Source of the DNA: Chloroflexota bacterium
GTDB lineage: Bacteria; Chloroflexota; Anaerolineae; Anaerolineales; E44-bin32
Direction: 5' to 3'
DNA length: 64,000 nucleotides
Assembly (NCBI GenBank): GCA_022561385.1
Contig: JADFRG010000013.1
Coordinates: 1-64,000, forward strand
The position numbers and the translations under genes are program-made. The notes under the pieces were generated by a model. It was not told the DNA's origin. It saw only the letters and a list, made by a program, of their open reading frames with translations, and searched no databases. This document shows positions 49,110 to 64,000 of the stretch, piece after piece. Position 1 is the stretch's first letter; the number at the start of each line of letters is the position of its first letter.

Positions 49110-49334
49110 TCACCTCGAGGTGCTCATGCGTATGACATCACCTTCAGCGTTGGCGACCACCCGTACGATTCTCTTCATGGTTTTTCCCTCCGGCAATTTC
49201 GCGGCGCCTTTGAAGATTATTTGATAACGTTCGCTGCCACCTTTTTCCGCCTTGACCGCGGGCCGCACCCCATCCAATTCAGGAAACTGGCGTACCACAG
49301 CCCGTGTGACCTTCTCCACCGCTTCCTTCTTCAC
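49110..49334 (-). CDS. Small basic protein of unknown function downstream of ftsZ
   Basis: A 74-aa basic protein that overlaps the ftsZ stop by 4 nt. It has a helix (EAVEKVTRAVVRQFPELDG) then three strands (RYQIIFKGAA, KRIVRVVANAEG, VIRMSTSR), a compact alpha-beta layout. No family recognised. Position argues for a function with FtsZ or in the envelope. Confidence 0.68.
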   Translation of the reverse strand: MKKEAVEKVTRAVVRQFPELDGVRPAVKAEKGGSERYQIIFKGAAKLPEGKTMKRIVRVVANAEGDVIRMSTSR

Positions 49335-50473
49335 GTTCGAGCTGCCTGCTCGCTCGGGAGGCTGGGGGAGCTCCTCCGACGCAGGAACGCGGGCACATCC
49401 AGGTCATCCATGTCGAATCTCAGTGAGGGGGCAGCGGTGGGTTTTTCCAATTTCACTTCCTGCACCGGCTGGCCGCCAACCCCGGTCACGATCAATATCA
49501 CCTGCACCCGACCGCGCATGGCCGGCTCAGTGGTTACACCCATAATAACTTCCGCATCTGGCGGCATGTTACCGCGCAGTGCCTCCACTGCACTCCCGAC
49601 CTCGACGAGGCTCAGATCTTCACCGCCGGTGAAATGTACCAGCGCGCCCGATGCCTGACCCAGGCTGTCAATTTCCAGCAGTGGGTGATGGAGTGCCTGC
49701 CGGACCGCGATCTCCGCTTTGTCGGCGCCTTCCCCAATTCCGATCGCCATTAGGGCCCCGCCGCCCTTGCGCATGATCGCGCGCACATGCGCAAAATCGA
49801 CGTTGATCAGCCCCGGCTTGTTGACCATTTCGACGATACCTTGTATGCCCTGGCGTAATACATCGTCGGCGAATCGAAAAGCTATTTCGAGGCTGGCCTC
49901 TCGGGGAACCACCTGTAGGAGGCGGTCGTTAGGGACGGTGATCAAGGTATGTGTATGCGGTTGTAACCGCCGGACCCCTTCGGTGGCATTCTTGGCCCGT
50001 TTGCTCATTTCAAATGAGAAGGGCATGGTCACCGTGGCAATTACTAATGCGCCTGTTTCGCGCGCGATTGCCGCCGCGATCGGCGAAGCCCCGGTGCCGG
50101 TCCCACCGCCCATGCCGGCCGCCAGGAAAATCATATCCGCGCCTGAGAGTGCTTCGGCCAGCTCGCGACTGCTTTCGATTGCGGCCGCAGCACCTACCTT
50201 TGGATCGCCTCCCGCTCCCAGGCCGCGCGTCACGCCGGGCCCTAGTTGGATCCGGGTGGGGGCCAGGCTCGACTCGAGCGCCTGATGGTCTGTATTGGCG
50301 GCAATAAACTCTGCCCCGATCAATCCCAGTTCGACCATCCGATTGACGGCGTTTGACCCTCCACCGCCAAGCCCAAGCACTTTGATGCGCGCCTCACCGA
50401 ATTCCTTTATGGCCGATTCCACCGCGCCTTCGGCTTGGGGCCCGCTCTGAAAAATATCTACATGTCCTGTCAT
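49331..50473 (-). CDS. ftsZ: Cell division protein FtsZ
   Basis: A 380-aa tubulin homologue. GTP-binding loops VLGLGGGGSNAVNRM and the tubulin signature GGGTGTG are intact; the synergy loop reads NKPGLINVDFAHV and supplies the catalytic acidic residue on the next subunit. The C-terminal tail keeps a DVPAFLRRR peptide, which normally binds FtsA/ZipA/SepF. No ftsA or other division gene is adjacent. Instead it is coupled by 4-nt overlaps to a TIM-barrel-like protein before it and a small protein after it. Confidence 0.96.
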   Translation of the reverse strand: MTGHVDIFQSGPQAEGAVESAIKEFGEARIKVLGLGGGGSNAVNRMVELGLIGAEFIAANTDHQALESSLAPTRIQLGPGVTRGLGAGGDPKVGAAAAIESSRELAEALSGADMIFLAAGMGGGTGTGASPIAAAIARETGALVIATVTMPFSFEMSKRAKNATEGVRRLQPHTHTLITVPNDRLLQVVPREASLEIAFRFADDVLRQGIQGIVEMVNKPGLINVDFAHVRAIMRKGGGALMAIGIGEGADKAEIAVRQALHHPLLEIDSLGQASGALVHFTGGEDLSLVEVGSAVEALRGNMPPDAEVIMGVTTEPAMRGRVQVILIVTGVGGQPVQEVKLEKPTAAPSLRFDMDDLDVPAFLRRRSSPSLPSEQAART

Positions 50474-51705
50474 TTTCCGTCCCTGTAAGTTGCTTTCCAG
50501 GCCGCCGCAATAATCTGCCCGGGGCCCTTCACTCGGGTGACATCACAGCCGGCCTCCAAGAGTCGCCGCTCGACCGAAGGAGGAATTGCGGCTTCGTCGC
50601 CCAGGATGGTCACTCGGTCGGCCTGCAGCGCCTCTTTGGTTGAGAATCCGATCACGCCATCCTTAATCAGCGTTTTGACCGTTGCCCATGTGTCCTCCGA
50701 CACCGGCCCGTCGGGAAGCAGCACGAAGTGGTCCAGAGCCTTGCCGGTCGATCTTGAGCCGGACAACCCACCCGCATCAAGGAGGCGTTTAGCCGACCCA
50801 ACGATGGGTCTGGGCTCGGAGGGGGAGGCAAACCACGCGGACTCGAAATCCGGACTGCCCGGGCTCGCGGACAACAGGTAGAAATTAAAACCCAGCACCG
50901 ATTGGGGAAGCTGCCCGGACTGCACCGCGCGCAAGATGCTTGCGATTTCGCCATTTCCGTCTTCCACGGTGCTGGGCGGCCCCCCCGCCACGACGATCAT
51001 GGGCAATGTTTTGCCCATCACCGCCTCGGTGGTAGCCGCATACCAGTCAAAGGTGCGAAAGCCGATCTGGTCCTGGGAACCATCGGGGGTGTTGTAGGGC
51101 CGGCTGGATGCCCATTCTTCCGGCCCGCCATAGCCCCATTCGAGTGGCTTGCCAAAGGTGCGGGCGAAGATGGCTAAATGCAGGTCGTCAAGCAGGCTCC
51201 GGTGGCCGCGACGAAGCATGGACTTCAGTGCAGTCTCCAGAAATGCGGTGTCCCAATAGTCGCCCCCCGGCTCGAGTGGGGGAAATACCGGGTGCATTCC
51301 AGTGGCGCGTTGGAGCTGTAATATGGGGAGCATCCGGTCGACAAATCGCTCCACCAGCCCCGGACGCGCCCATTCGTCTGACGGCCACATGGACCGCAGA
51401 TTCGGACGATCGAATACGACGACCTCGCGCACACCCCACTCCCCATAATTGGCGAGCGCGGGCGAGATCTGGTCGGAGGCTACCTCGTCCACTCGTCCCT
51501 TGATCCATACCACCGGCCGAATTCCAGCTTCAATCAACCCTCTTAGGAACGGCTGCGGGATCAGGCGGTTTGGCGTGGCGTGAAGCACCAGCCAATTGGC
51601 CGACAAACGCAAAAGCGTCGGGAGCCACTCTTCCAGGTCTTTCTCCGTATAGTGGCTATCGTCGGGAAAATAGTGAAAGCCGAGGCGAGAAATGGGTGCG
51701 CTCAT
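50470..51705 (-). CDS. TIM-barrel-like protein, glycosidase-like, unknown function
   Basis: A 411-aa cytosolic protein (no signal seen). Alternating beta/alpha segments start with LGFHYFPDDSHYTEKDLEEW and LSANWLVLHATPNRLIPQPFLRGL, a pattern typical of (beta/alpha)8 glycoside-hydrolase-like barrels; further strands are RPVVWIKGRVDE, REVVVFDRPN, PMIVVAGGPPS and VLGFNFYLLSA. No clear catalytic Glu pair. It shares a 4-nt overlap with ftsZ. It lies just downstream of a sigma-54-like promoter. A predicted enzyme in the ftsZ unit is odd, and I cannot assign a substrate. Confidence 0.7.
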   Translation of the reverse strand: MSAPISRLGFHYFPDDSHYTEKDLEEWLPTLLRLSANWLVLHATPNRLIPQPFLRGLIEAGIRPVVWIKGRVDEVASDQISPALANYGEWGVREVVVFDRPNLRSMWPSDEWARPGLVERFVDRMLPILQLQRATGMHPVFPPLEPGGDYWDTAFLETALKSMLRRGHRSLLDDLHLAIFARTFGKPLEWGYGGPEEWASSRPYNTPDGSQDQIGFRTFDWYAATTEAVMGKTLPMIVVAGGPPSTVEDGNGEIASILRAVQSGQLPQSVLGFNFYLLSASPGSPDFESAWFASPSEPRPIVGSAKRLLDAGGLSGSRSTGKALDHFVLLPDGPVSEDTWATVKTLIKDGVIGFSTKEALQADRVTILGDEAAIPPSVERRLLEAGCDVTRVKGPGQIIAAAWKATYRDGK

Positions 51706-51719
51706 AGTGCCCTTATCCG

Positions 51720-51736
51720 TGCAAGGTTCGTGCCGC
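51720..51736 (-). promoter_or_regulatory. Putative sigma-54 promoter for TIM-barrel/ftsZ unit
   Basis: Minus strand reads CGGCACG-AACC-TTGCA, matching the consensus TGGCACG-N4-TTGCA except the first base; GG and GC are 10 nt apart as required. It lies in the 36-bp gap after the protease gene. The start predicted from it is about 51710, leaving only a few bases of leader before the ATG at 51705, which is a caveat. Confidence 0.6.
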
Positions 51737-51741
51737 GCTTG

Positions 51742-54276
51742 TTATCTGGAGACGGCCAGTTTGATCACCTTGCCCGAGGGGTCAAGGGTCATCCTGGCGA
51801 AGTGAGGATGCAGTATCGATCCCTCGCTCACGTGTTTCGAGAGGGTCACGACCAGGGCTTCATTTTCGCCGGCGGTTTTCATTCCTATCTGCTGACTCGG
51901 GCAGCAGTGGTCCTCGCTATCGCACCCATGATGTTGGTTGTGTAGGCTGCAGTCCGCGTCCGTCATGGTGGGCAGATATTGAGCGACGATGGACTGCACC
52001 CGATCGCTGATCGAAGAGTAGGCATCATCCGTCAGCAGGTCTGGCCCTCCAAGTGCGCATGCGGTTTTGATCGTGGCCGGCCGCTTGGAACTGCGAGTCA
52101 CTGCCTTGCTGCCCATCGGTCGACCGGTCAAGCGCGAGGTGAGAAGCGGATCGCCGTACAGCACAAACGAGATCAGCGTTTTCTGGTCTTCGCCATCCAA
52201 ATATCCCTGACGCTCAAACATTTCCGTTGCGAGCTTAAACTTGGCCAGCCGCAGCGCTTCACCTACGGGAACCGCCGTCCGCAGCTCCTCCCAGAATAAG
52301 CGGCCCAACAGATCCGCGGCAATCAGGGGAGGAGTCACCGAGCCGTATGAGATCATTGTTGATCCGATCACGGCCTGGCTTCCGCTCGACAGAAACTTCA
52401 GGCTCAGGGCGGTCTCCTCCGTTTTGCCAATCACGTGCGCTCCGTAACAAGCCTCGGTGAACACGATCCTCGGAGCCCGCCCGCTGTTGACTACATCTTT
52501 CGGTCGAAGCGCTATCGGAAACTCCACCGAATCCGAAGGATCCCTCAGCGGATCTCGCTGCCCGTACCATTCAGGAGTGTCCTGCAAACCGTGCAGGTTG
52601 AAATACGAAAGCCGGCTGGGACGACTCGCCACCGACGGCATGTTGTCGGCCGCACTGGGCGGGGAGGTGATCAAGGAGCGCGGGGCACCGATGGCTCCAA
52701 ATACCGACAAGGAAGCCTTGCGCCAGATGCTGGCGGTGTATCCGATCGCCTTGGGCTGCGGACGGAAGAGTCGTACGAATCGATCTCCGGCCCAGATCCT
52801 GAAACGCCTGGGGCCGGATCTTGACCGCCGCTGCTCACGGTGGGCAGCGGTGGCATTGCTCAGCAGCTTGACCAGAAGATCGGTATCGGAGTCAATGGGC
52901 AACCGGCCGACCGGCCATTGGGGGGCGAAGTAATTCTCATCGGTCGCGGCGTAAGGATTGTCCGAGGGCACCGAATCATCGTCGTCGTCGGTTGGATTGG
53001 GCAGCAGATGGAAGGGGACGATGTTGTGGCCCCCGACGATCAGAAGCGCTCCGATCATCTCACCCCGTTCAGCCAGCGCCTGGTCAAGATCCGCCAGACG
53101 TAACTTGATTTGCCAGGCATTTCCTGGATCGCAGGGCATTAGGCCGAAGGGTTGCAGGGAGCGCGGGTCGTCCATATAGATGCGATAGGCTCCCCATCCG
53201 TTCTTGCGCCGCACGACCTCAACCAGATTCATGATGGCTTCGTTCACGCGTTTGAACCCGGAGGGTCCAATTTGCTGCACGAGTCGGGTGTGGCTGCTCA
53301 GCACGATGTAAACCGGTAGCCGGGCCTCCTGATCTTCCGATGGACGGCGGACATTGAGGCGCTGCGCCAATCGATCAAACTCATTACGCACCGAAAGCAG
53401 CGCTTCATCGGGATCGGAATGTTCGTCGGAACGCGGCCCCTGGAAGGCCTCCCCTGGTTCCGGATCCGGCATTGGAGAAGGGTCTGACGGCGGAGACTTC
53501 GCGGACGCTCCCATCACCGCCAGAACATCCTCCGGCACAGGCCGGCTGATCCGCGCCTGCATGTGAACGGGCCAGAGCGCTCGATATGCGTGATCGAGAC
53601 CCAGCACGGTCTCGGTGATGACACCCAGGGGGTCAGCCGCCGCGACCTGGTGCATTCGCTCAACGCCTGCCGCCGGCCGATCAGAGTCGAGTTGAGCTTC
53701 GGCAAGTACCAGTTTGAACGCAACACAGTGCGGCCAGCGATCGTGGCCCGCCTCCGCCAGGCGGACGGCTTCTTGCGTCGCGCCGGTTGCAAGGCTGGCT
53801 CTAACGGCAACTAGAGCAGGCAGCGCAAAGCTGGGATCCGCCGCCAGAGCCTCATTGGATGCGCGCAATGCCTCCGCTGGATCATTGGCCTCTAATGCCC
53901 GATACGCCCTGGCCAGAGCCACCGCCCAGGAGGGAGAGCTGGAGGCGTTGGGCTGTTCGCCGGCGAGAGCCTTGGCGCAGGCCATGTAAACCGGTATCCG
54001 CAGACTGTCACCAGTTTGTTTATAGGCCTCAGCCAGCATCTCGTAGGCAGGTCGACTTTCTGGGTCGACTTCTATTAATAGTGACAACCGGTCGATAGCC
54101 GAACTCGCCGCTCCTGATTTGAGCTCGACCGTAGCCAGCTGGAGCGCAACCTCCGTATCACCCGGCCACGTAGCCAGCCACTCGATGGCCAGGTTGCGAG
54201 CGTAATCGAGCCGACCCGCAACTTGCGCCGCATGAAGCGTGCTCACGACGGTCTCACGGTCCATTGTTTTAGCCAT
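51742..54276 (-). CDS. TPR protein with C25/caspase-like protease domain
   Basis: An 844-aa cytoplasmic protein. Residues 1-230 are TPR-like helical pairs; about 240-320 is a Pro/Asp/Ser-rich linker. From about 320 to 715 is a caspase-fold region related to peptidase C25 (gingipain)/CHAT: SDNPYAATDENYFA ... WPVGRLP (438-460), LLIVGGHN strand, the catalytic-type histidine H562 in FNLHGLQD, cysteine C610 in FTEACYGAHV, and the LYGDPLL motif (706-712). The C-terminal 70 residues contain a Cys/His cluster (C776, H779, H782, H783, C785, H790, C791, C792). It overlaps the 1654-aa TPR gene by 8 nt. Protease activity is inferred from the dyad. Confidence 0.87.
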   Translation of the reverse strand: MAKTMDRETVVSTLHAAQVAGRLDYARNLAIEWLATWPGDTEVALQLATVELKSGAASSAIDRLSLLIEVDPESRPAYEMLAEAYKQTGDSLRIPVYMACAKALAGEQPNASSSPSWAVALARAYRALEANDPAEALRASNEALAADPSFALPALVAVRASLATGATQEAVRLAEAGHDRWPHCVAFKLVLAEAQLDSDRPAAGVERMHQVAAADPLGVITETVLGLDHAYRALWPVHMQARISRPVPEDVLAVMGASAKSPPSDPSPMPDPEPGEAFQGPRSDEHSDPDEALLSVRNEFDRLAQRLNVRRPSEDQEARLPVYIVLSSHTRLVQQIGPSGFKRVNEAIMNLVEVVRRKNGWGAYRIYMDDPRSLQPFGLMPCDPGNAWQIKLRLADLDQALAERGEMIGALLIVGGHNIVPFHLLPNPTDDDDDSVPSDNPYAATDENYFAPQWPVGRLPIDSDTDLLVKLLSNATAAHREQRRSRSGPRRFRIWAGDRFVRLFRPQPKAIGYTASIWRKASLSVFGAIGAPRSLITSPPSAADNMPSVASRPSRLSYFNLHGLQDTPEWYGQRDPLRDPSDSVEFPIALRPKDVVNSGRAPRIVFTEACYGAHVIGKTEETALSLKFLSSGSQAVIGSTMISYGSVTPPLIAADLLGRLFWEELRTAVPVGEALRLAKFKLATEMFERQGYLDGEDQKTLISFVLYGDPLLTSRLTGRPMGSKAVTRSSKRPATIKTACALGGPDLLTDDAYSSISDRVQSIVAQYLPTMTDADCSLHNQHHGCDSEDHCCPSQQIGMKTAGENEALVVTLSKHVSEGSILHPHFARMTLDPSGKVIKLAVSR

Positions 54277-57200
54277 GTACCAACTCCAGTGCGCGAACGG
54301 CCGCCAACTGGTGCATCACGTTTTGGTCGGCCGGCGCAAGTTCAGCGGCGCGTTTGAGCATCTCACCCGCTTTACGATAAGCCTTGAGCGACCGCAGCAG
54401 CAGGCCGGCTCGGTAGTGGGCCTGCAGGTTATCCGGTTCAATCTCCAGGGCCTTGTCGTAGGAATCCAGCGCGCGCGAGTAATCCCGTCGATCTTCGTAA
54501 ACCATCCCGGCCTCTACCGGAACCCGCGGATCATTTGGATCCGCGCCTTCGGCCTGCCTCAGTTCTTCGATCGCCCGGTCGAGATTGCCGGACATGCGCG
54601 AGATCCGGCCCAGGCCCAGGCGATACTCTGGATTGGCGGGTGAAATGCGAATAGCCTCGCTCATAGCCTTGTCGGCACCGCTCAGGTCGGATCCGGCCTC
54701 CAGGGTCTCGGCCAGCTCATACCAGAGCCGATGATCATCGGGGGCCGAATTCAGCACCTCTTGCATCGCCTGTGCCGCCAGCGCGTGTTTGCCCCACCGA
54801 ACGAGCGCCTTGCTCTCAGCACGGCGCACATGGCTCGGATCTGCTCCCGCCTCTCGAGCTTCTTTGAAGGCGGACATCGCGGCCCGATAATCTCCGGATG
54901 CGGCGCGAACATGACCCACTCCGAGCAACACCCGGGCATCATCAGGAGCCTGCTGGATAGCCGCCTCTAATCTTTCATTGGCCTGCTGTTTGTCACCCCG
55001 CGCGATCGAGGCCTTGGCCGATCCGACCAGGCTATCTATATCCGCGGGTTGGAGAGTGATGGCACGTTCAAACCAGGCGGAGGCCTGCTCCGATGCTCCA
55101 AGCTGCAGAGCGACCTGGCCGGCCTCGCGGTAGGGGGCCGCCGAATCCGATCCGTAGGCTAATGCCGCGGTGTAACCTTCCAGGGCCTGATTGAGATGAC
55201 CCATTGCGGCGTACGCGCCGGCTACCGAAAGCAGGTATTCCGGATTCTCCGGGCTGCTGGCGACCGCACCCTGGTAGTGAGCGAGGGCCGAATCGCCGTC
55301 TCCGATTTCCAGGAAGGCGGTGGCTAACTTATGCTGCCATCGGTGCTGATCCGGGGCTTCAACAACCGCGGTCCCGATGTGTGTTGCGGCCCGCTCCAGG
55401 CTGCCGGATCTCCAATAGGATTTACCTAACAGGTAATTGGAGACCGGGCTGGAGGAGCTCCCCGACCGGTATGCAGCGCGGGCCTCTACTTCGCGGCCGC
55501 TCGCTTCGTGGATCATTCCCTCCAGAATGGAGCCCCACTCGGGATCAGACCGGACGAGCCTGACCTGATCTAGCGCCTCCTTGGCCGACGGTAGTTGATC
55601 CGCCATGAGATAGGAAATTGTGACCGCCTCTCCAATCCAGCCCATAGGATCCAGGTCAATGAATTCACTCAGTGCCGAAGGAGCCTCCGCCGCTCGCAAC
55701 CAGGCTGCAAGGGATGGAGCGGCAAGATCGCGCTTCTGGAGATCCTCCAGAGCGTTCTGCGCAAGCCTGGTCAGGTCATCTTCCCGAAGCGGAGACACGG
55801 CATCCGAAAGACCGTACAGCCAGAGCGTGTCCCGTATGCGCAAGTAGATGCGCACCTGCTCTTGGGCTGCGGAGGGATCTGTACCCCAACTGTTCAGGAC
55901 CACCATCGCCTCCGAAATGTTTAGCAGACCCATTTCCGCCCTCGCCAGCCAAACAGCATCGTGCGCCGACTCGACCGGCGCCGTCCGCGCCTGCTCCAGG
56001 TATTCCAGCGCACGGCTCCGGTCCGGCGCGGAGACAACGAGCATCGCGAACGTTCGAGTCGTCCCGTAGCCGTGCTCAATGGCTTCGGAGAGAGATGTCA
56101 CGGCCAGCTCTCGCTTGTCTAATAACAGGTACGCCTCTCCCATAGCCGCCTGGGCGCGTCCGCTGTCTGACAGCGCGGGGTCCAGCTTGCTGAGCAGAGC
56201 CAGGGCGTAGCGCGGGTCGCCTGCGCTCAGGGCCGCCTCTGCGGCTTCGTAGGCCAGGGAGCCGTCGTTCGGGGCGGACTTGACCGCCGCGGCATAGGCA
56301 AGAAGCCCCCGCCGGACCTGCCCGCGATCGAGATGGGCTACGGCTAAATCACGCCGAAGCGAGGTGTTGCCTGGCTCTAAGGCCACGGCCCGCTCGAGCA
56401 ATCCCACCGACTGGTCGCCATATCCCAACCTTCGGGCGCATTCCGCATAACGTCTGAGAGGTTCGGATTCGTTCGGCGCAAGTGCAGCACTGGCCTGCCA
56501 GGTGTCGTAAGCGCCCTGCCAATCGTTCGCAGATTCCTGAATCCCGGCCAGAACGCCGAGCAGCTCGGGATCGTCTGGACGAACGCGCGCGGCGGCCTTC
56601 ATCACCGTAAGGGCGGTTCGAACACTGCCGGTCTTATTCAGGAAATCCGCCGCCTCCTGCAATATCCTGGGATCACGTCGGCCGCGCCACACGGCTTCCG
56701 CAACAGATCTGCGGACGACGCGTAGGTCCTTCGCACCGGAAGCCAACCTGGCCAGTGTGAGCCAGCCCTGGGCCGCCTTTGGATCCAGAGAACTTAACCT
56801 TTCGATTGCTTTCACCGCACCACGAAAATCTCCGGCATTGGCCAGCGAGTCGCCAAGTGCGTGCCAGCCCCGCGTCTCTTTGGGATCGAGCTCAACCGCC
56901 TGCTCGGCCACCTCCAGCGCCTTGTCCGGAAGATTGGCGGACAGATATACGTCGGACATGGCCGCCAGGATCTTGGCCGATCTTGGAAATCGCTCCTGCG
57001 CCTGCTCGAGACCGGCAAGCGCCCTCGAGATCTGATCCAGTGCTAACGCAGCTCGAGCCGATCCAAGGATCGCCTGCTCGCGCAGTTCATAATCATCTGA
57101 GTTCTGCACCCGATCGTAGCGGGCGAGCGCCTCCTCGTAACGCGCCTCAGCTTCGAAAGCGCGGCCGAACCAATAGTCGAGCGACGGATCCGCCCATCCT

Positions 57201-59233
57201 CCGGCCTCCGCGGCCTCAAGATATTGAAGTGCGGAAATCATCCCCAGTCTCTTGCTGCCTGCCTTGACGGATATGCGCGCAGAGTGGAAATAGGCCTCGG
57301 CGGGTGCGGAGGAAGGTAGCGGCCGAAGGATCTGGACCGCTTGTGTCATCGCTCCTTGTCGCTCGTAGGTCTTTGCCAGCGCAAGCGCTACTTGCCAGCT
57401 CAGGGGTTGTCGCAACGCCGCCTTGCGCAAGATATCCAGTGCCTGATCGACGTGTCCGAGCTCGCTCAGCAAATTCGCGTACTCCAGGCCGGGGTCGGCG
57501 TACTTACCATCTAGCTCCCAGGCGATGGCGGCCACCTCTAACGCTTCGCTGGTTTTCCCCCGTGACCGCAGGAATCTGGCCAGCGAGAGGTGCCCCGAGG
57601 GATCCTTCGGATTGGCCTGCACCGCTTCGGTCAACGTGTCGTATGCCTCGGATGGCTCTCCACTCGCCAACTGGGCTGAAGCGAGCGCGTGGTAGGCCTG
57701 GAGCTCGCTGGGCGACTTCCGTATCGCTTCTCGATATTTTGCGATGGCCCCTTTGCGGTCGCTGCCAGAATCAAGCAGCATGCCTTCCAGGACTGACCTG
57801 CGCGGGCTGCTGTGTGATGTCTCATCCAGCGCGGTTCCGGCAATCTCGAAGTCTTCCGCCGCAATGGCATATTCGGCAAGATCCATGGCGTCCACCGCGG
57901 GTACCTGACGCCAGTGTTTGAGTGCCTGGGCATGATTTCCCATACGTTGTTGAATCTCGGCCTGGAGCTTGTGGGACTTCTCGGACTGGGGGCCGAGCGC
58001 CAGAGCGATCGCGGCATGTTCATTCGCCGCATCGGCATCGCCGGCCTCAAGCAGCGCTCTTGCCAGGCTCAAGTGTGCCTCTATGCTGGATGGATGATGA
58101 GTGACACGCGCCTGTACCGCCTCAACGACGGCAGACCACTCGTCAGTTACCGCAAGCCCATCGGCGAGCAACGCGAACCATTCCTCGTCCAGAGACTCAT
58201 CGATAGAGGCCAAAGCACGGATCAGCAGAGCTCGAGAATCATGGGTCTGGGATTGAGACAGGCCACTTGCAATCTGTTCTTCAACCGACGGGTCGGCAGC
58301 GGAAACAAGGGATAGGGCTTCCCCGGGTTGGTCCAGACTCAGCAAACTCAAGGCCGTCCGTGCCCGTCGGGCCGGCGTCGGAAGGATATCCAGGGCCTTG
58401 CGGTTCGCCTCCAGCTCAGTGACATGATCTCCGGATGCCCGGGCCTGATCTGCCGTGAAATCTGCCACCTGGGCCGCGGTCTCCGAGGCAGTCTTCCAGG
58501 CCTTTCGAAGCGAGTTACTCGCCTTCCTGTGCTCGCCATTTAATTGACGCGTTACGGCCTCGATAAGCAGGTGCGAAAGTTGGTCCGCGCCTCCGTTGGC
58601 GGAGGCAGGTAGCGAGCGAGCTAACCTTGATTCGCCACCGCGGGTGATCTGCTGCAGCATATGCACCGTCGAGCCGTTCGCATTGCGAGTAAGGTAGGCC
58701 GCGGCTTCGCTGGGAGGAAAATTGGAAAGGGCGATCTGGATCGCGAGTTGAGAAAGATCGCGATCAAACAGACGACCCATAAAGTTTTCCGGTTCCGAGA
58801 GATTGAGCCAGGCGATGGCAATGGGGGAATGCCAGATGGAGAGAGATTCCGCCACACGGTCGAGCAGACGCTCGGGGTCTTCATCGTAACGGCGCGTAAA
58901 TTCAAGACCCAGAAGCGCGGCATCGAAGAGATCGCGCTGGACCACTACTCCCACCGAGGCTTCTTCCCATACCTGACGTGCCCGGTCGGCATGAGCCTCA
59001 GCCAGCCCCGGATTCACTGCCGAATGGAGACTGCCGCCCAGTGCCAGAGAGGCCAGGTGTGAAGGTGTCAGACTTGCGGGTGGAACCGCTGTAACGACCT
59101 CATCCAGGAAAGCGGGGTTGTGCAGCGCGGCCCAGGCCTCCGGAACCCGGAGGACTCGGTCGAGAACAGCCGCCAGCGGGTCCTGATCCAGCCGCGTAAG
59201 CAGCGCGGTCAGGACTTCTTGGTCCGTGTGCAT
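54269..59233 (-). CDS. Giant tetratricopeptide-repeat protein (1654 aa)
   Basis: Almost entirely tandem TPR units of about 34 residues, with the W-L-G-Y-x-A-Y-x-P pattern repeated from about residue 260 to the end, such as PKDPSGHLSLARFLRSRGKT and PDNLQAHYRAGLLLRSLKAY. The first 260 residues are helical and less regular. No signal peptide, membrane segment or enzymatic motif is visible. Such long superhelices act as scaffolds. Its stop overlaps the start of the TPR/protease gene, so the two are translationally coupled, and it follows the 109-aa membrane protein by 12 bp. Confidence 0.92.
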   Translation of the reverse strand: MHTDQEVLTALLTRLDQDPLAAVLDRVLRVPEAWAALHNPAFLDEVVTAVPPASLTPSHLASLALGGSLHSAVNPGLAEAHADRARQVWEEASVGVVVQRDLFDAALLGLEFTRRYDEDPERLLDRVAESLSIWHSPIAIAWLNLSEPENFMGRLFDRDLSQLAIQIALSNFPPSEAAAYLTRNANGSTVHMLQQITRGGESRLARSLPASANGGADQLSHLLIEAVTRQLNGEHRKASNSLRKAWKTASETAAQVADFTADQARASGDHVTELEANRKALDILPTPARRARTALSLLSLDQPGEALSLVSAADPSVEEQIASGLSQSQTHDSRALLIRALASIDESLDEEWFALLADGLAVTDEWSAVVEAVQARVTHHPSSIEAHLSLARALLEAGDADAANEHAAIALALGPQSEKSHKLQAEIQQRMGNHAQALKHWRQVPAVDAMDLAEYAIAAEDFEIAGTALDETSHSSPRRSVLEGMLLDSGSDRKGAIAKYREAIRKSPSELQAYHALASAQLASGEPSEAYDTLTEAVQANPKDPSGHLSLARFLRSRGKTSEALEVAAIAWELDGKYADPGLEYANLLSELGHVDQALDILRKAALRQPLSWQVALALAKTYERQGAMTQAVQILRPLPSSAPAEAYFHSARISVKAGSKRLGMISALQYLEAAEAGGWADPSLDYWFGRAFEAEARYEEALARYDRVQNSDDYELREQAILGSARAALALDQISRALAGLEQAQERFPRSAKILAAMSDVYLSANLPDKALEVAEQAVELDPKETRGWHALGDSLANAGDFRGAVKAIERLSSLDPKAAQGWLTLARLASGAKDLRVVRRSVAEAVWRGRRDPRILQEAADFLNKTGSVRTALTVMKAAARVRPDDPELLGVLAGIQESANDWQGAYDTWQASAALAPNESEPLRRYAECARRLGYGDQSVGLLERAVALEPGNTSLRRDLAVAHLDRGQVRRGLLAYAAAVKSAPNDGSLAYEAAEAALSAGDPRYALALLSKLDPALSDSGRAQAAMGEAYLLLDKRELAVTSLSEAIEHGYGTTRTFAMLVVSAPDRSRALEYLEQARTAPVESAHDAVWLARAEMGLLNISEAMVVLNSWGTDPSAAQEQVRIYLRIRDTLWLYGLSDAVSPLREDDLTRLAQNALEDLQKRDLAAPSLAAWLRAAEAPSALSEFIDLDPMGWIGEAVTISYLMADQLPSAKEALDQVRLVRSDPEWGSILEGMIHEASGREVEARAAYRSGSSSSPVSNYLLGKSYWRSGSLERAATHIGTAVVEAPDQHRWQHKLATAFLEIGDGDSALAHYQGAVASSPENPEYLLSVAGAYAAMGHLNQALEGYTAALAYGSDSAAPYREAGQVALQLGASEQASAWFERAITLQPADIDSLVGSAKASIARGDKQQANERLEAAIQQAPDDARVLLGVGHVRAASGDYRAAMSAFKEAREAGADPSHVRRAESKALVRWGKHALAAQAMQEVLNSAPDDHRLWYELAETLEAGSDLSGADKAMSEAIRISPANPEYRLGLGRISRMSGNLDRAIEELRQAEGADPNDPRVPVEAGMVYEDRRDYSRALDSYDKALEIEPDNLQAHYRAGLLLRSLKAYRKAGEMLKRAAELAPADQNVMHQLAAVRALELVHG

Positions 59234-59610: not shown

Positions 59611-59627
59611 TGCAATGATCGTGCCAA
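59611..59627 (-). promoter_or_regulatory. Sigma-54 (-24/-12) promoter, consensus match
   Basis: Minus strand TTGGCACGATCATTGCA matches YTGGCACGRNNNTTGCW at every defined position. The start of transcription would fall near 59600, about 25 nt before the ATG at 59575, with GGAGG in the leader. It is encoded about 3 kb from rpoN and 80 bp from the sigma-54 activator gene. Confidence 0.87.
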
Positions 59628-59685
59628 GCCCGATCATCGTGCCGTGCTCGATCATCATGCCATGCAGGATCATCGTGCGATGCAC
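59614..59685. repeat. 18-bp tandem repeat overlapping the sigma-54 promoter
   Basis: Four 18-bp units at 59614-59631, 59632-59649, 59650-59667 and 59668-59685 share GATCATCGTGCC-like cores. On the minus strand each carries a GGCACGATGATC-like version of the -24 element; only the last unit (the one nearest the gene) also has a -12 element. Possible enhancer, decoy or promoter-evolution array. Confidence 0.8.
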
Positions 59686-59706
59686 GGTGTCCGGCCGGCC
59701 TCTAAA

Positions 59707-60885
59707 CTAAGATGAAATTAGGGACTGAAATTCAGGGGAGAGGTGGCCGAGGTCGATTTCTTCATCATCACAAAACAACATGGCGCGCTCAATGACGTGG
59801 CGCAGCTCTCGCATGTTGCCGGGCCAGTCATGAGCTTTCAGAGCTTCGATGGCTCGCGGCGTGATGTCGGTCACCGGATTACCGGTCCGCAGGCTCTCCT
59901 GGCGGATAAAGGATCCGACCAGAGCGGGAACGTCCGCCATACGCTCGCGCAAGGGCGGGAGGTGGAGATCGACAACTTTCAACCGGTAATAAAGATCCTC
60001 CCGAAAGCTGCCGTCTTTCATCATGGCTAGAAGGTCCCGGTTAGAGGCCGCAATGATCTGAACGTCGACGATGATCTCGTGTATCCCTCCAACCCGCCGG
60101 AATTTCCGTTCATCCAGCACCCGCAACAACTTGGCCTGCATATCGGTCTTGGTGGAGGATATTTCGTCCAGGAACAGGATCCCGCCGTCGGCGACCTCCA
60201 TCAGACCGGGTTTGCGCTTCGTGGCACCGGTGAAGGCGCCCGCCTCATGCCCAAAGAGCTCAGATTCGATCATTGTGTCCGGGAGCGCGGCGCAGTTGAT
60301 GGGCACAAAGGGTTTATCCGCACGCGGCCCGGCCATGCGGATCACATTGGCGATAATCTCTTTGCCGGTCCCGGTCTCACCAGTAATGAGCACCGAAACT
60401 GAGGCGGCGGCGGCGCGCTCGGCCTCGTCGGCGATGCGGGCCATCTCGGGCGTGTCTCCCACGATCCACTCATATTGGTCCTGGGAGGATTTTCTCAACA
60501 GCGCCAGTTCACGTCGTAATGAGACGACTTCGCTCGCGCGCTCGACCGCGCTGATTAACCGTTCCAAATCCAAGGGCTTTTGGAGGAAGTCCTGGGCTCC
60601 CTGCTTCATGGCCTCCACCGCGATGTCGACCTCTCCGAATGCCGTAATGAGAATCACGGGGGGACTGGGGTTCTCTCGCTCGATCTGCTCCAGCAGGGAT
60701 AGTCCCGATCCATCCGGCAGCACCACGTCCAAAAGGACGATATCCGCCGCGCCGGTCTTGATCGCCTGCCGCGCGGCGGCCAAATCTCCGGCCTCGATCG
60801 CCTCGTAGCCGGCGTCGCTTAACGCGCCGTGCACAAAGCTTCGGGCTGTTTCTTCGTCGTCAACGATGAGAACAGTTGAGCTCAT
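59707..60885 (-). CDS. NtrC-like sigma-54 activator lacking the DNA-binding domain
   Basis: A 392-aa enhancer-binding protein. The receiver domain (about 4-115) has D9/D10 and phospho-acceptor D53 in LLDVVLP. The AAA+ domain (about 140-375) has Walker A GETGTGKE, the sigma-54 contact motif GAFTGA, Walker B ILFLDEIS and REDLYYRL. The protein stops at LGHLSPEFQSLISS, just after the AAA+ domain, so the Fis-type HTH found in nearly all relatives is absent. Examples without an HTH are known (FlgR of Helicobacter, CtcC of Chlamydia) and act from solution. It overlaps the kinase gene by 4 nt. Confidence 0.94.
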   Translation of the reverse strand: MSSTVLIVDDEETARSFVHGALSDAGYEAIEAGDLAAARQAIKTGAADIVLLDVVLPDGSGLSLLEQIERENPSPPVILITAFGEVDIAVEAMKQGAQDFLQKPLDLERLISAVERASEVVSLRRELALLRKSSQDQYEWIVGDTPEMARIADEAERAAAASVSVLITGETGTGKEIIANVIRMAGPRADKPFVPINCAALPDTMIESELFGHEAGAFTGATKRKPGLMEVADGGILFLDEISSTKTDMQAKLLRVLDERKFRRVGGIHEIIVDVQIIAASNRDLLAMMKDGSFREDLYYRLKVVDLHLPPLRERMADVPALVGSFIRQESLRTGNPVTDITPRAIEALKAHDWPGNMRELRHVIERAMLFCDDEEIDLGHLSPEFQSLISS

Positions 60886-62816
60886 TTGGATTTAGCGATC
60901 GGAAGCTCGAGGGTGAAAACCGTTCCCGCATCCTGAAAGCTCTCCACCCGGATATTCCCCTTGTGCGCGTTCAAAATGCGCCGGCTGATTGCCAGGCCAA
61001 GTCCGGTTCCGGACTTCTTCGTGGAGAAAAACGGATCGAACACCCGATCGATCAGGTCCTGTTGGATGCCCGGCCCGGTATCTGCGAATTTGAGCTCCAC
61101 GCCTTCAGGTCCGTTAGGAGAGATGTTCACCGACAGAGTGCCTCCCTCCGGCATCGCCTGGATGGCGTTGGTCAAGAGATTGATGATGACCTGCTCCAGG
61201 GTCCGCTCGTCGGCGAGGACAGGCGGCAGCTGGGGCGAATAGTTTTTATGGGTTCGGACCTTGGCTTGCCTGAAACGCGGCTCCCAGCGCGTAAGGATGC
61301 GATCCAGGAACCTGGCGAGATCCAATGGCACAAATTTTAATTCGAGCGGGCGCGCGAAGAAGAGAACGTCTTCCATCAGCTGATCCAGGCGGCCGCATTC
61401 GCTGCGAACTTTCTCTATCGATTGATATTGGGGATGGTCCTTCCCCAACCGCGAAGCCACAAGCTGAAGCCCGGTGCTGATATTGTTGATGGGATTGCGC
61501 ACTTCGTGGGCAAAAATTGCGGCCACTTCTCCCAGCAGGGCGCGTTGAGCCAGCGTCTCAGTCTGGTCCTCGATGGCCTTCTGCTCCGATTGGTCGCTGA
61601 GCACGAGCACGACGCGTGTCGGCGCGGGATCCTCCTGGGGGACTGCCCTCATATTCACGGGGAAAGGTGTGCCATCACGCCGATGAAGCGTCATGTGAGC
61701 TCGATCTGCCTGGCGCTGGTGGCCTAACACGTCCAACAGCGTGGTCATGAGGTCCGAAGGGCCTACCAAAACATCTTGAATTTCCATGCCGATCAGCTGG
61801 TCGTCCGGGTAACCCAACATCAACGAGGCGGCCTGATTGGCCCGCAGAACCCGCAGCTTCGAGTCCAAAGTTAAGACGGCGTCATTTACGGCCTGGAAGT
61901 GGAGCTCCTGTTCCTTCTTGGTACGATCCAGGGATTCGTCCAACTGGGTCACAACCTCACGCTGCATATTCATCAAGATGCGGGCATGACATAAATTGGC
62001 CAGTATCTCCATAATGCCGATGGCATCCGATGGAACGTCCTGCAGCTCTCGCCATCCGACGACAAGTAGCCCCACCCAGGCGCTCTCGGTCCCTAGCGGA
62101 GAAGTGCGCAGCGCCTTTAGCCCGAGCGAGCGGGCCGCCCGCTGGAGCGGATGATCCGGCCGGGTGCCGATGGCCCACTGACTTGGCCGATCCAGAGGGT
62201 CGAGGTCGGTGGAGGGCAGGGAGTCGGGAAAACCATCCGGCAGGTGACCCTCCAGCTCGTATTCCGGGCCGGCCGCCGATACGCGGTAGACGCCGACCGC
62301 GGCTGCCGAGAGCAGTTCGCCTGAAAATCGGATGATATCGGAGAGCGCAGTGGGTGTAGATTCGAGCAGTAGCTCCGAAATCTTGATCAGCGTAGCCAGC
62401 TGCTCTTTTTCGGAGAGCGATCGCTGCTCGTCGCGTAAGCGGTCGGAGGTCGCCGTGACCAGCAGCAAGACTGCCTGAGTAGGGCTGCCCACCGGGTAGG
62501 CCCGAATATCCACTAACAGCTGCTCGCCGTCCCGGGTGACGGCCGGTACGGCCTCGATGTTGCCCTCGGTCGAAGCTTTTGCGCGAGCCAACGCCACCAC
62601 ACCTTCGTCGCCATAAAAGAAGTCGGGCGGCGAAATGGCTTCGAGTTCGTTGCGCGTAAAACCGCTCAGGAGCAGGAAGGAGTGGTTAGCGGCAAGAATG
62701 GTCCGTGCTTCACTGTCGATAACCAGGACCGCCTCACTGAGCGAATCAGCGAGTGCGGCAAATAGTTCTCTATGGGGTTGAGGTCTCAGCAGTCTGGTAA
62801 GTGGGTTCGTTGGCAA
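60882..62816 (-). CDS. NtrB-like PAS/GAF histidine kinase
   Basis: A 644-aa soluble kinase. PAS (about 20-125), a GAF-like segment (about 145-290), PAS (about 305-410), HisKA with the phospho-acceptor in AIFAHEVRNPINNIS and HATPase_c with NLLTNAIQAMPEGG, DTGPGIQ and GTGLGLAISRRIL. The HisKA/HATPase pair is of the NtrB type that partners NtrC regulators. Start is a TTG at 62816 with a GGAAAGG site, 12 nt after rpoN. The gene overlap with the activator makes them a cognate pair. Confidence 0.94.
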   Translation of the reverse strand: MPTNPLTRLLRPQPHRELFAALADSLSEAVLVIDSEARTILAANHSFLLLSGFTRNELEAISPPDFFYGDEGVVALARAKASTEGNIEAVPAVTRDGEQLLVDIRAYPVGSPTQAVLLLVTATSDRLRDEQRSLSEKEQLATLIKISELLLESTPTALSDIIRFSGELLSAAAVGVYRVSAAGPEYELEGHLPDGFPDSLPSTDLDPLDRPSQWAIGTRPDHPLQRAARSLGLKALRTSPLGTESAWVGLLVVGWRELQDVPSDAIGIMEILANLCHARILMNMQREVVTQLDESLDRTKKEQELHFQAVNDAVLTLDSKLRVLRANQAASLMLGYPDDQLIGMEIQDVLVGPSDLMTTLLDVLGHQRQADRAHMTLHRRDGTPFPVNMRAVPQEDPAPTRVVLVLSDQSEQKAIEDQTETLAQRALLGEVAAIFAHEVRNPINNISTGLQLVASRLGKDHPQYQSIEKVRSECGRLDQLMEDVLFFARPLELKFVPLDLARFLDRILTRWEPRFRQAKVRTHKNYSPQLPPVLADERTLEQVIINLLTNAIQAMPEGGTLSVNISPNGPEGVELKFADTGPGIQQDLIDRVFDPFFSTKKSGTGLGLAISRRILNAHKGNIRVESFQDAGTVFTLELPIAKSK

Positions 62817-62828
62817 GCGTTACCTTTC

Positions 62829-64000
62829 CTAGGCTGGGGCCGCCTGCGCTTTTCGCAGCCGGGCGGGGAGGATTCCCTCGATCGTCCGATACTTCGCCAC
62901 CGTTCGTCGCGCGATCTTGACCCCCTGTCGGCGAAGGGCGGCCGCGATTTGGTCATCCGTCAGCGGTTTCATCTCGGATTTCACAATTTCCTTAATTCGA
63001 TCTCGAACCGAAAGGCTCCGATCGAAGAACTTCGCCAGCGGGATAATCCGGCCATCCGGCAGGGCCATTCCCTTATTGGATACTGCGCGCGAGACGGTGG
63101 ACTCATGCACCCCGAGCCGATCGGCTAATTTGGCACGCGTCATGGGTCGCAGGTGCCGGTCTCCATTCAGGATGAAATCGCGTTGCGTCTGCACCAAGTC
63201 CTTCATCAGCCTGCGCATAGTATTGTTGCGCTGTTGTAAACATTTGACAAATAGGGCCGCGCGCTCCAAATGCTTCTTCCACTCTTCAGAATGGTTTTCG
63301 TCGGCCTGGGCGAGTGCGCTGCGGAAATGGGGGTTGACCCGGAGCCAGCCCGGCATGGAGGAAAATATCTCGACCACGAGCGGACCTTCCGATCGCCGCG
63401 TGATCTGGATATCCGGGGTGTGGTAGACGTTGGGATCCGCGCTAGCGGGTGTACGTCCGGATCCCCAGAATGAGCGGGCGGGGTAGGGATTCAGCTTTTC
63501 TTGAATAAAGGTCGCCGCCGTTCGAACCTTAGCCACAGCCACGTCGAGATCGTTTGCGATGTTATCGAATTCGCGTCGCGCGAGTCGTTCAAATTCCGAT
63601 TGCAGAATCTGGCGTGAGAGGATCACCTTCGGATCATCCGCGCGGAGAAGATCCAGCTGCACCAGCAGGGCCGCGCGCGGTCCAGAAGTGCCCAACCCGG
63701 CAGGGTCAACGTGCGCAATCATATCGACGACACCTTTGACGCGCTCGAGCGAAACCCGGAGTTCGCGTGCCACGAGTGCCGGCGCGTCGGGCAAGAATCC
63801 GTCGTCGTCGAGACTGGACAATATATAAGCGGCGATCGGCCGGTCTTCCACGTCCAACTCGGCCGCCAGCTGCTCGAGCACATAAACCGCAAGGTTCTCG
63901 GGCGCGGCCGGCTCAAGATCCTCCTTCTCGTCTTCATAACGAGGGGTTCCGCCTCCGTCTCGGGGAGAGATGAAAACTACCGAATCCTCGTTGGCCTGCG
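62829..64000 (-). CDS. rpoN: RNA polymerase sigma-54 factor, truncated by window edge
   Basis: The frame remains open through base 64000, so the N-terminus is outside. The visible part has the core-binding domain with DRPIAAYILSSLDDDGFLPD, the winged-helix/HTH region KLADRLGVHESTVSRAVSNKGM, and the RpoN box ARRTVAKYR that contacts the -24 element. It directs RNA polymerase to -24/-12 promoters and needs an AAA+ activator. Upstream of the usual GTG-like M at 63881 the frame reads an acidic N-terminal linker, as expected. First gene of the sigma-54 cluster. Confidence 0.94.
   Translation of the reverse strand, partial: QANEDSVVFISPRDGGGTPRYEDEKEDLEPAAPENLAVYVLEQLAAELDVEDRPIAAYILSSLDDDGFLPDAPALVARELRVSLERVKGVVDMIAHVDPAGLGTSGPRAALLVQLDLLRADDPKVILSRQILQSEFERLARREFDNIANDLDVAVAKVRTAATFIQEKLNPYPARSFWGSGRTPASADPNVYHTPDIQITRRSEGPLVVEIFSSMPGWLRVNPHFRSALAQADENHSEEWKKHLERAALFVKCLQQRNNTMRRLMKDLVQTQRDFILNGDRHLRPMTRAKLADRLGVHESTVSRAVSNKGMALPDGRIIPLAKFFDRSLSVRDRIKEIVKSEMKPLTDDQIAAALRRQGVKIARRTVAKYRTIEGILPARLRKAQAAPA

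Follow-up and report, generated by a model that had tools for sequence, protein, structure and literature searches.

A conserved Chloroflexota operon encoding a predicted TPR-C25 caspase-like protease, with putative sigma54 control and a possible link to a second FtsZ

Gene content of the locus

We analysed a stretch of 64,000 nucleotides (the window) from a Chloroflexota MAG, the nearest named relatives of which are labelled Chloroflexi/Anaerolineales. The minus strand of the window carries a gene for a predicted cysteine protease within the gene order rpoN - PAS histidine kinase - NtrC-type activator - g109 - giant TPR - protease - g411 - FtsZ2 - (g238) - plsX - fabF. The features referred to below are as follows.

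Contig 64251-64266: sigma54 site of rpoN itself, perfect, just ahead of rpoN
62829..64000, minus strand: rpoN (sigma54), continuing past the window to contig position 64229
60882..62816, minus strand: PAS histidine kinase, no TM helix
59707..60885, minus strand: NtrC-type sigma54 activator consisting of receiver, AAA+ and lid, without HTH (group 5 bEBP layout)
59611..59626, minus strand: sigma54 -24/-12 promoter TGGCACGATCATTGCA, perfect, 35 nt ahead of the g109 start codon
59246..59575, minus strand: g109, small membrane protein with two hydrophobic helices (~15-33 and ~85-103)
54269..59233, minus strand: giant TPR protein of 1654 aa, the gene overlapping the protease gene by 8 bp
51742..54276, minus strand: predicted TPR-C25 caspase-like cysteine protease, 844 aa, ATG start
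51720..51735, minus strand: second sigma54 promoter CGGCACGAACCTTGCA, one mismatch to the consensus, just ahead of g411
50470..51705, minus strand: g411, unknown family, no TM or signal
49331..50473, minus strand: FtsZ2, a second FtsZ in a clade apart from the dcw-type FtsZ1

The protease gene is the third of an operon g109 - giant TPR - protease - g411 - FtsZ2, and stop codons run throughout the plus strand at 51742-54276. This gene order is retained throughout the order to which the host belongs, and its most constant core, g109 - giant TPR - protease, was also found in other classes of the phylum. Judged by this synteny, the protease, the giant TPR protein and g109 are shown to form one conserved, predicted operon. 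Phylum-wide, g109 precedes the giant TPR gene and has an invariant T-x2-G patch in its second helix. The neighbouring g411, which matched no Pfam or NCBIfam family, adjoins the protease phylum-wide, and its C-terminus bears a weak likeness to S-layer cell-wall-binding modules (E 0.02); a PDB search likewise yielded no firm match for g411. At four loci (L040, L051, L053 and L054), 0.8 to 2.5 kb of extra genes lie between the protease and g411-FtsZ2.

The predicted protease and its relatives

The protease consists of a TPR part (residues ~7-250), a C25 domain (~316-716) with H562 and C610, a Cys/His tail (776-792) and a conserved C-terminus (~806-844). The original prediction had put a TPR part ahead of the protease domain, in agreement with a TPR_19 match at residues 20-82 that lies above the Pfam cut-off. 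It had also assigned the protein to a peptidase-C25/CHAT fold, and here only the first half stood: Peptidase_C25 (PF01364) matched residues 604-712 with 41.0 bits against a gathering cut-off of 23, and was matched by 29 of 38 relatives (E<=0.1), whereas CHAT was unmatched by Pfam in the window protein and gave weak matches in 10 of 38 relatives. H562 (YFNLHGL) and C610 (TEACYGA) were located where they had been predicted, and so were the motifs SDNPYA...ENYF...VGRLP (438-460) and LYGDP (706-710). The protein was further expected to lack a secretion signal, and we found no N-terminal hydrophobic segment, the TPR helices starting from residue ~7. There is no clear TM helix, and the single borderline hydrophobic stretch is a buried strand near residue 407.

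Of the 61 genomes from the order, 55 encode relatives of the protease, with roughly one copy each. H562 and C610 had been proposed as the catalytic dyad, which is now likely given that neither varies among the 49 members of the order that were aligned. Conserved blocks in these members are YFNLHG, EACYG, PSDNPYA..DENYF..W.VGR.P and LDGEDQKT..SF.LYGDPL. When other orders and classes are included, the catalytic His is retained in 70 and the Cys in 68 of 72 relatives. A full-length profile searched against the PDB was swamped by TPR proteins, and the search was rerun with the protease domain alone (38 sequences). This returned only two chains at E <10, both of gingipain R; the matches are weak (E 0.07 and 0.085), yet colinear through the VGR motif. 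AlphaFold built a TPR array from residues 1-230 (pLDDT mostly 70-89), and gave the catalytic region a pLDDT <30 in two runs covering three sequences only (the window protein and two relatives). With these models, the catalytic region of which has pLDDT <30, Foldseek found nothing at E<=0.001. Taken together, domain matches and residue conservation uphold the earlier interpretation of an intracellular C25 protein with a TPR N-terminus and an H562/C610 dyad, in all but its CHAT component, and we classify it as a predicted cysteine protease of the cytoplasm that belongs to the C25/caspase clan (clan CD).

In a lineage of another class, the catalytic Cys is replaced in four genomes (L087, L089, L090 and L093), and the His is lost as well in L093. 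These proteins are presumably natural pseudoproteases. Since all four genomes still keep the protease gene and g411, a non-proteolytic role probably exists in places. No relative of the protease was detected in the viral contigs scanned, and the plasmid matches were only to distant Rhizobium-type C25 proteins that covered ~25-32% of the query.

The Cys/His tail

The original prediction drew attention to four Cys and four His within 17 positions, and residues 776-792 do read CSLHNQHHGCDSEDHCC. These eight Cys/His residues compare with a maximum of three per 17-aa segment in each of ten other proteins of the cluster. Among relatives, the 45 aa that follow YLPG(M) contain on average 1.98 Cys, against 0.37 expected (n=50). 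At least two Cys are present in the tail of 32 of the 50, typically in the pattern H-x2-C-x4-H-x-C-P, while 15 of the 50 have none, and more distant members of the protease family carry different Cys clusters in the same place. The tail is a recurrent feature rather than a strictly conserved one, and cannot be indispensable for the fold, because 15 of 50 relatives carry no Cys there. A metal site in the tail of many lineages is plausible from these patterns. The original suggestion was metal-controlled folding or redox sensing; on the same patterns, an obligate role of either kind is not plausible.

Sigma54 promoters and a putative regulon

The genome encodes one sigma54 and one strong match to Sigma54_activat, which is the activator of this locus; the two others score low (34.4 and 27.5 bits) and come from frames of 827-828 aa. 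In the activator, which is 392 residues long, the last Pfam domain is the AAA lid, ending at residue 387, and no DNA-binding domain is present. Such HTH-less proteins of receiver plus AAA+ constitute group 5 of the bEBPs, and FlgR and CtcC have this layout (PMC7175178).

Three perfect TGGCAC-N5-TTGCA sites occur in the 2.9-Mb assembly, and two of them are at the locus, ahead of g109 and rpoN. As ~1.4 such sites are expected by chance under uniform base use, it is their placement that carries evidence. We scanned other genomes of the order for NGGCAY-N5-TTGCW within -200 to +30 of gene starts, with dinucleotide shuffles as the control. A site was present at g109 in 22/33 cases, at g411 in 14/22 and at rpoN in 3/3, compared with ~0 in the shuffles. 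Control genes carried few or none (activator 0/17, kinase 0/7, plsX 0/8, FtsZ 1/20), and the protease gene itself was preceded by a site in 5/38. The position of the g411 site is conserved in relatives, and where the g411-FtsZ2 pair is located elsewhere in the genome it retains its own site (L117, L119, L120, L121 and L122). At the level of predicted promoters, these data show that the operon and the g411-FtsZ2 pair each stand under a sigma54 promoter in the order, and a dedicated sigma54 regulon is well supported as a prediction.

The g109 promoter forms the final unit of a degenerate tandem array (18-bp unit, 3.8 copies; window 59618-59686), as if it derived from, or were preceded by, repeated -24-like elements. 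The third perfect site in the assembly (L123:3654-3669) lies directly ahead of a gene for a 624-aa beta-propeller (PD40) protein (L123:1774-3648, minus strand) with an N-terminal hydrophobic segment, and this protein is a possible further member of the regulon.

A second FtsZ without the second T7-loop aspartate

Two FtsZ proteins are encoded in the host genome, and the FtsZ2 clade is supported at 99/93. FtsZ2 scored 375.7 bits against the TIGR00065 equivalog (cut-off 295.2) and its GTP-binding signature GGGTGTG is intact. The second of the two catalytic Asp residues in the T7 loop, equivalent to D212, is replaced by His (NVDFAHV). Within the order this residue is lost in 25 of 26 FtsZ2 proteins and retained in 20 of 20 FtsZ1 proteins; outside the order it is gone from four of seven FtsZ2 proteins. 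FtsZ2 also keeps a C-terminal anchor peptide, DLDVPAFLRRR, the C-terminal peptide being the part of FtsZ that binds its membrane anchors. In E. coli, the FtsZ D212A variant has 7% of its GTPase left (PMC8142252), and polymers of FtsZ D212N have been described as stable (PMC12754632). From the loss of the D212 equivalent, FtsZ2 is probably GTPase-crippled, with slow hydrolysis. FtsZ2 proteins of three members of the class outside the order (L098, L101 and L103) have the T7-loop Asp (NVDFADV, NLDFADV), so its loss would either postdate the origin of the paralogue or have recurred.

Within the class, rpoN was found in 22/22 protease-bearing and 0/15 protease-lacking members, and two FtsZ copies in 21/22 and 1/15, respectively, counts that are not independent, as eight of the fifteen negatives belong to one family (f11). 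For rpoN there is one apparent exception, G029, in which rpoN-HK-RR-g109 are present and the contig ends inside the giant TPR gene. The sole protease-lacking genome with two FtsZ copies is G092, and its second copy groups with FtsZ1.

NACHT-bearing partners outside the order

A NACHT domain was found at the N-terminus of 10 of the 12 giant TPR partners outside the order. Within the order, none of 33 giant TPR proteins has a Walker A motif, and the window protein has no NACHT domain. Because the partners outside the order mostly bear NACHT, the ancestral unit was probably a NACHT-TPR platform together with a TPR-caspase-like protease. By its domain composition this ancestral system looks NLR-like, and its NTPase appears to have been lost in the order of the window. 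Four members of the phylum outside the class (G220, G351, G336 and G368) have the protease and one FtsZ, and two of the four are without rpoN. On these grounds, FtsZ2 and sigma54 would be add-ons and the role of the protease would be older, FtsZ2 having apparently joined the module within the class.

Discussion

We propose that the locus encodes a protease/scaffold module that is switched on by sigma54, anchored at the membrane and coupled to an FtsZ that stabilises the ring, with conditional arrest or remodelling of division as its output; we give this reading a probability of roughly 0.45. An intracellular signal would lead to phosphorylation of the activator, and transcription by sigma54 would then make the module. 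The activator may need no DNA site of its own, because sigma54 promoters are so few in this genome. The small protein g109 would tether the giant TPR scaffold to the membrane, and the scaffold, by contacts between TPRs, would hold the protease and license it; the Cys/His tail may serve as a metal latch. FtsZ2 would enter FtsZ1 filaments and slow their turnover, and division would be arrested or remodelled until the protease or growth reverses the arrest. As the effector, the protease would remove a protein of division or of the envelope, for which FtsZ2 itself, g109 and g411 are candidates. We infer the division output of the module, and FtsZ2 could be co-regulated with the protease without acting in the same process. 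A more specific version posits a bacterial differentiation switch not described before, in which one sigma54, one kinase and one HTH-less activator work only to deploy a caspase-like protease on an NLR-derived giant TPR scaffold, along with an FtsZ of crippled GTPase by which the Z-ring is frozen or remodelled. We consider this version doubtful. If true, machinery of the cell-death type would have been recruited for the control of cell division.

Two alternatives deserve weight. The NACHT ancestry speaks for an NLR-like role in defence or cell suicide, in which a NACHT-TPR protein senses an invader and activates the protease, the cell is damaged, possibly via g109 as a membrane effector, and the order has a derived version of the system. 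The occurrence of NACHT-TPR partners beside a caspase-like protease outside the order fits this idea, and in Chloroflexi, among other bacteria, surveys have reported that NACHT and caspase homologues occur together (PMC3501461). However, defence genes are patchy, whereas this module is near-universal in the order, at about one syntenic copy per genome, is linked with sigma54, a two-component system and FtsZ2, and has lost NACHT in the order of the window. PADLOC-DB gave no match to the protease, g109, g411 or FtsZ2, and only marginal repeat-type matches to the giant TPR protein. The virus and plasmid searches, with no viral-contig match and distant, partial C25 matches on plasmids, also argue against it. 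A defence role is less likely than the module proposed above, in view of the vertical presence across the order, the predicted sigma54 control and the PADLOC-DB result for those four proteins; we regard it as unlikely.

We would place at a similar, low level a regulon for maintenance of the envelope, in which sigma54 governs functions of the cell surface, the protease acts on proteins of the envelope or of division while cells grow normally, processing them, and FtsZ2 serves as a stabilising second subunit of the Z-ring, as in chloroplasts. Sigma54 has been proposed to control the bacterial exterior (PMC3162934), the C-terminus of g411 weakly resembles cell-wall-binding modules, and the protein behind the third perfect sigma54 site is a beta-propeller with an N-terminal hydrophobic segment. 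On the other hand, neither g411 nor the protease carries an export signal, and one whole family of the order lives without the module. It is also conceivable, and very improbable, that the protease domain serves the giant TPR protein chiefly as a structural partner and that catalysis is dispensable: the gene and g411 are kept in the four genomes that have lost the catalytic Cys, one of which has lost the His too, but 68 of 72 relatives overall retain the Cys and 70 the His, and none of the 49 aligned sequences from the order lacks either. A gingipain-like protease secreted for nutrition can be practically dismissed, for C25 membership and gingipain R as the only PDB match are set against the lack of a signal peptide, a TPR part at the extreme N-terminus and the sigma54/FtsZ2 regulon. 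A CRISPR/Craspase context was rejected, as positions 41000-64000 contain no direct-repeat family and the conserved neighbours are not cas genes.

The module differs from each of the systems that it resembles in part. With Peptidase C25 proteins (gingipains, PorU) the protease shares the Pfam match, the SDxxY...VGRxP and LYGDP motifs and a dyad of His-Gly and Cys; unlike them it is predicted to be intracellular, has a TPR N-terminus and no secretion parts, and its structural match is weak (E 0.07). Craspase, in which Csx29 (TPR-CHAT) acts with Cas7-11, likewise has TPRs followed by a caspase-like cysteine protease and a large partner protein, but the window protease belongs to C25 and not CHAT, its partner is a TPR protein and not a crRNA effector, and no cas genes or CRISPR-type repeats adjoin it. 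Bacterial systems of NACHT/STAND proteins and caspase-like proteases resemble the NACHT-TPR and protease pairs found outside the order, whereas here the NTPase appears lost and the module is vertical, order-wide, sigma54-controlled and FtsZ2-linked.

In our view, the features of the protease are of less interest than its regulon, the second FtsZ and the partners with NACHT in other lineages. In the open-access literature that we searched, we found no description of such a system in Chloroflexi. If our reading is true, an intracellular C25 protease, a sigma54 system of few promoters and a natural FtsZ paralogue without the Asp are joined in a combination that we did not find described, and the module points to an undescribed conditional programme altering cell division in a large group of Chloroflexota. 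The distribution suggests a route by which a NACHT-protease pair may have become part of a cell-cycle programme.

In its regulation, the locus is similar to the circuits of FlgR in Helicobacter and CtcC in Chlamydia, which also have a receiver plus AAA+ activator without a DNA-binding domain and few target promoters. In contrast to these circuits, rpoN, the kinase and the activator are clustered here with the target operon, and the targets are a caspase-like protease with its TPR scaffold and an FtsZ paralogue. The two FtsZ proteins recall the FtsZ1/FtsZ2 pair of chloroplasts, with unlike dynamics that for the window FtsZ2 are predicted from sequence, and FtsZ2 lacks the same T7-loop Asp as the GTPase-deficient D212 mutants of E. 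coli FtsZ. Unlike either, it is a natural bacterial paralogue without the Asp that is putatively controlled by sigma54.
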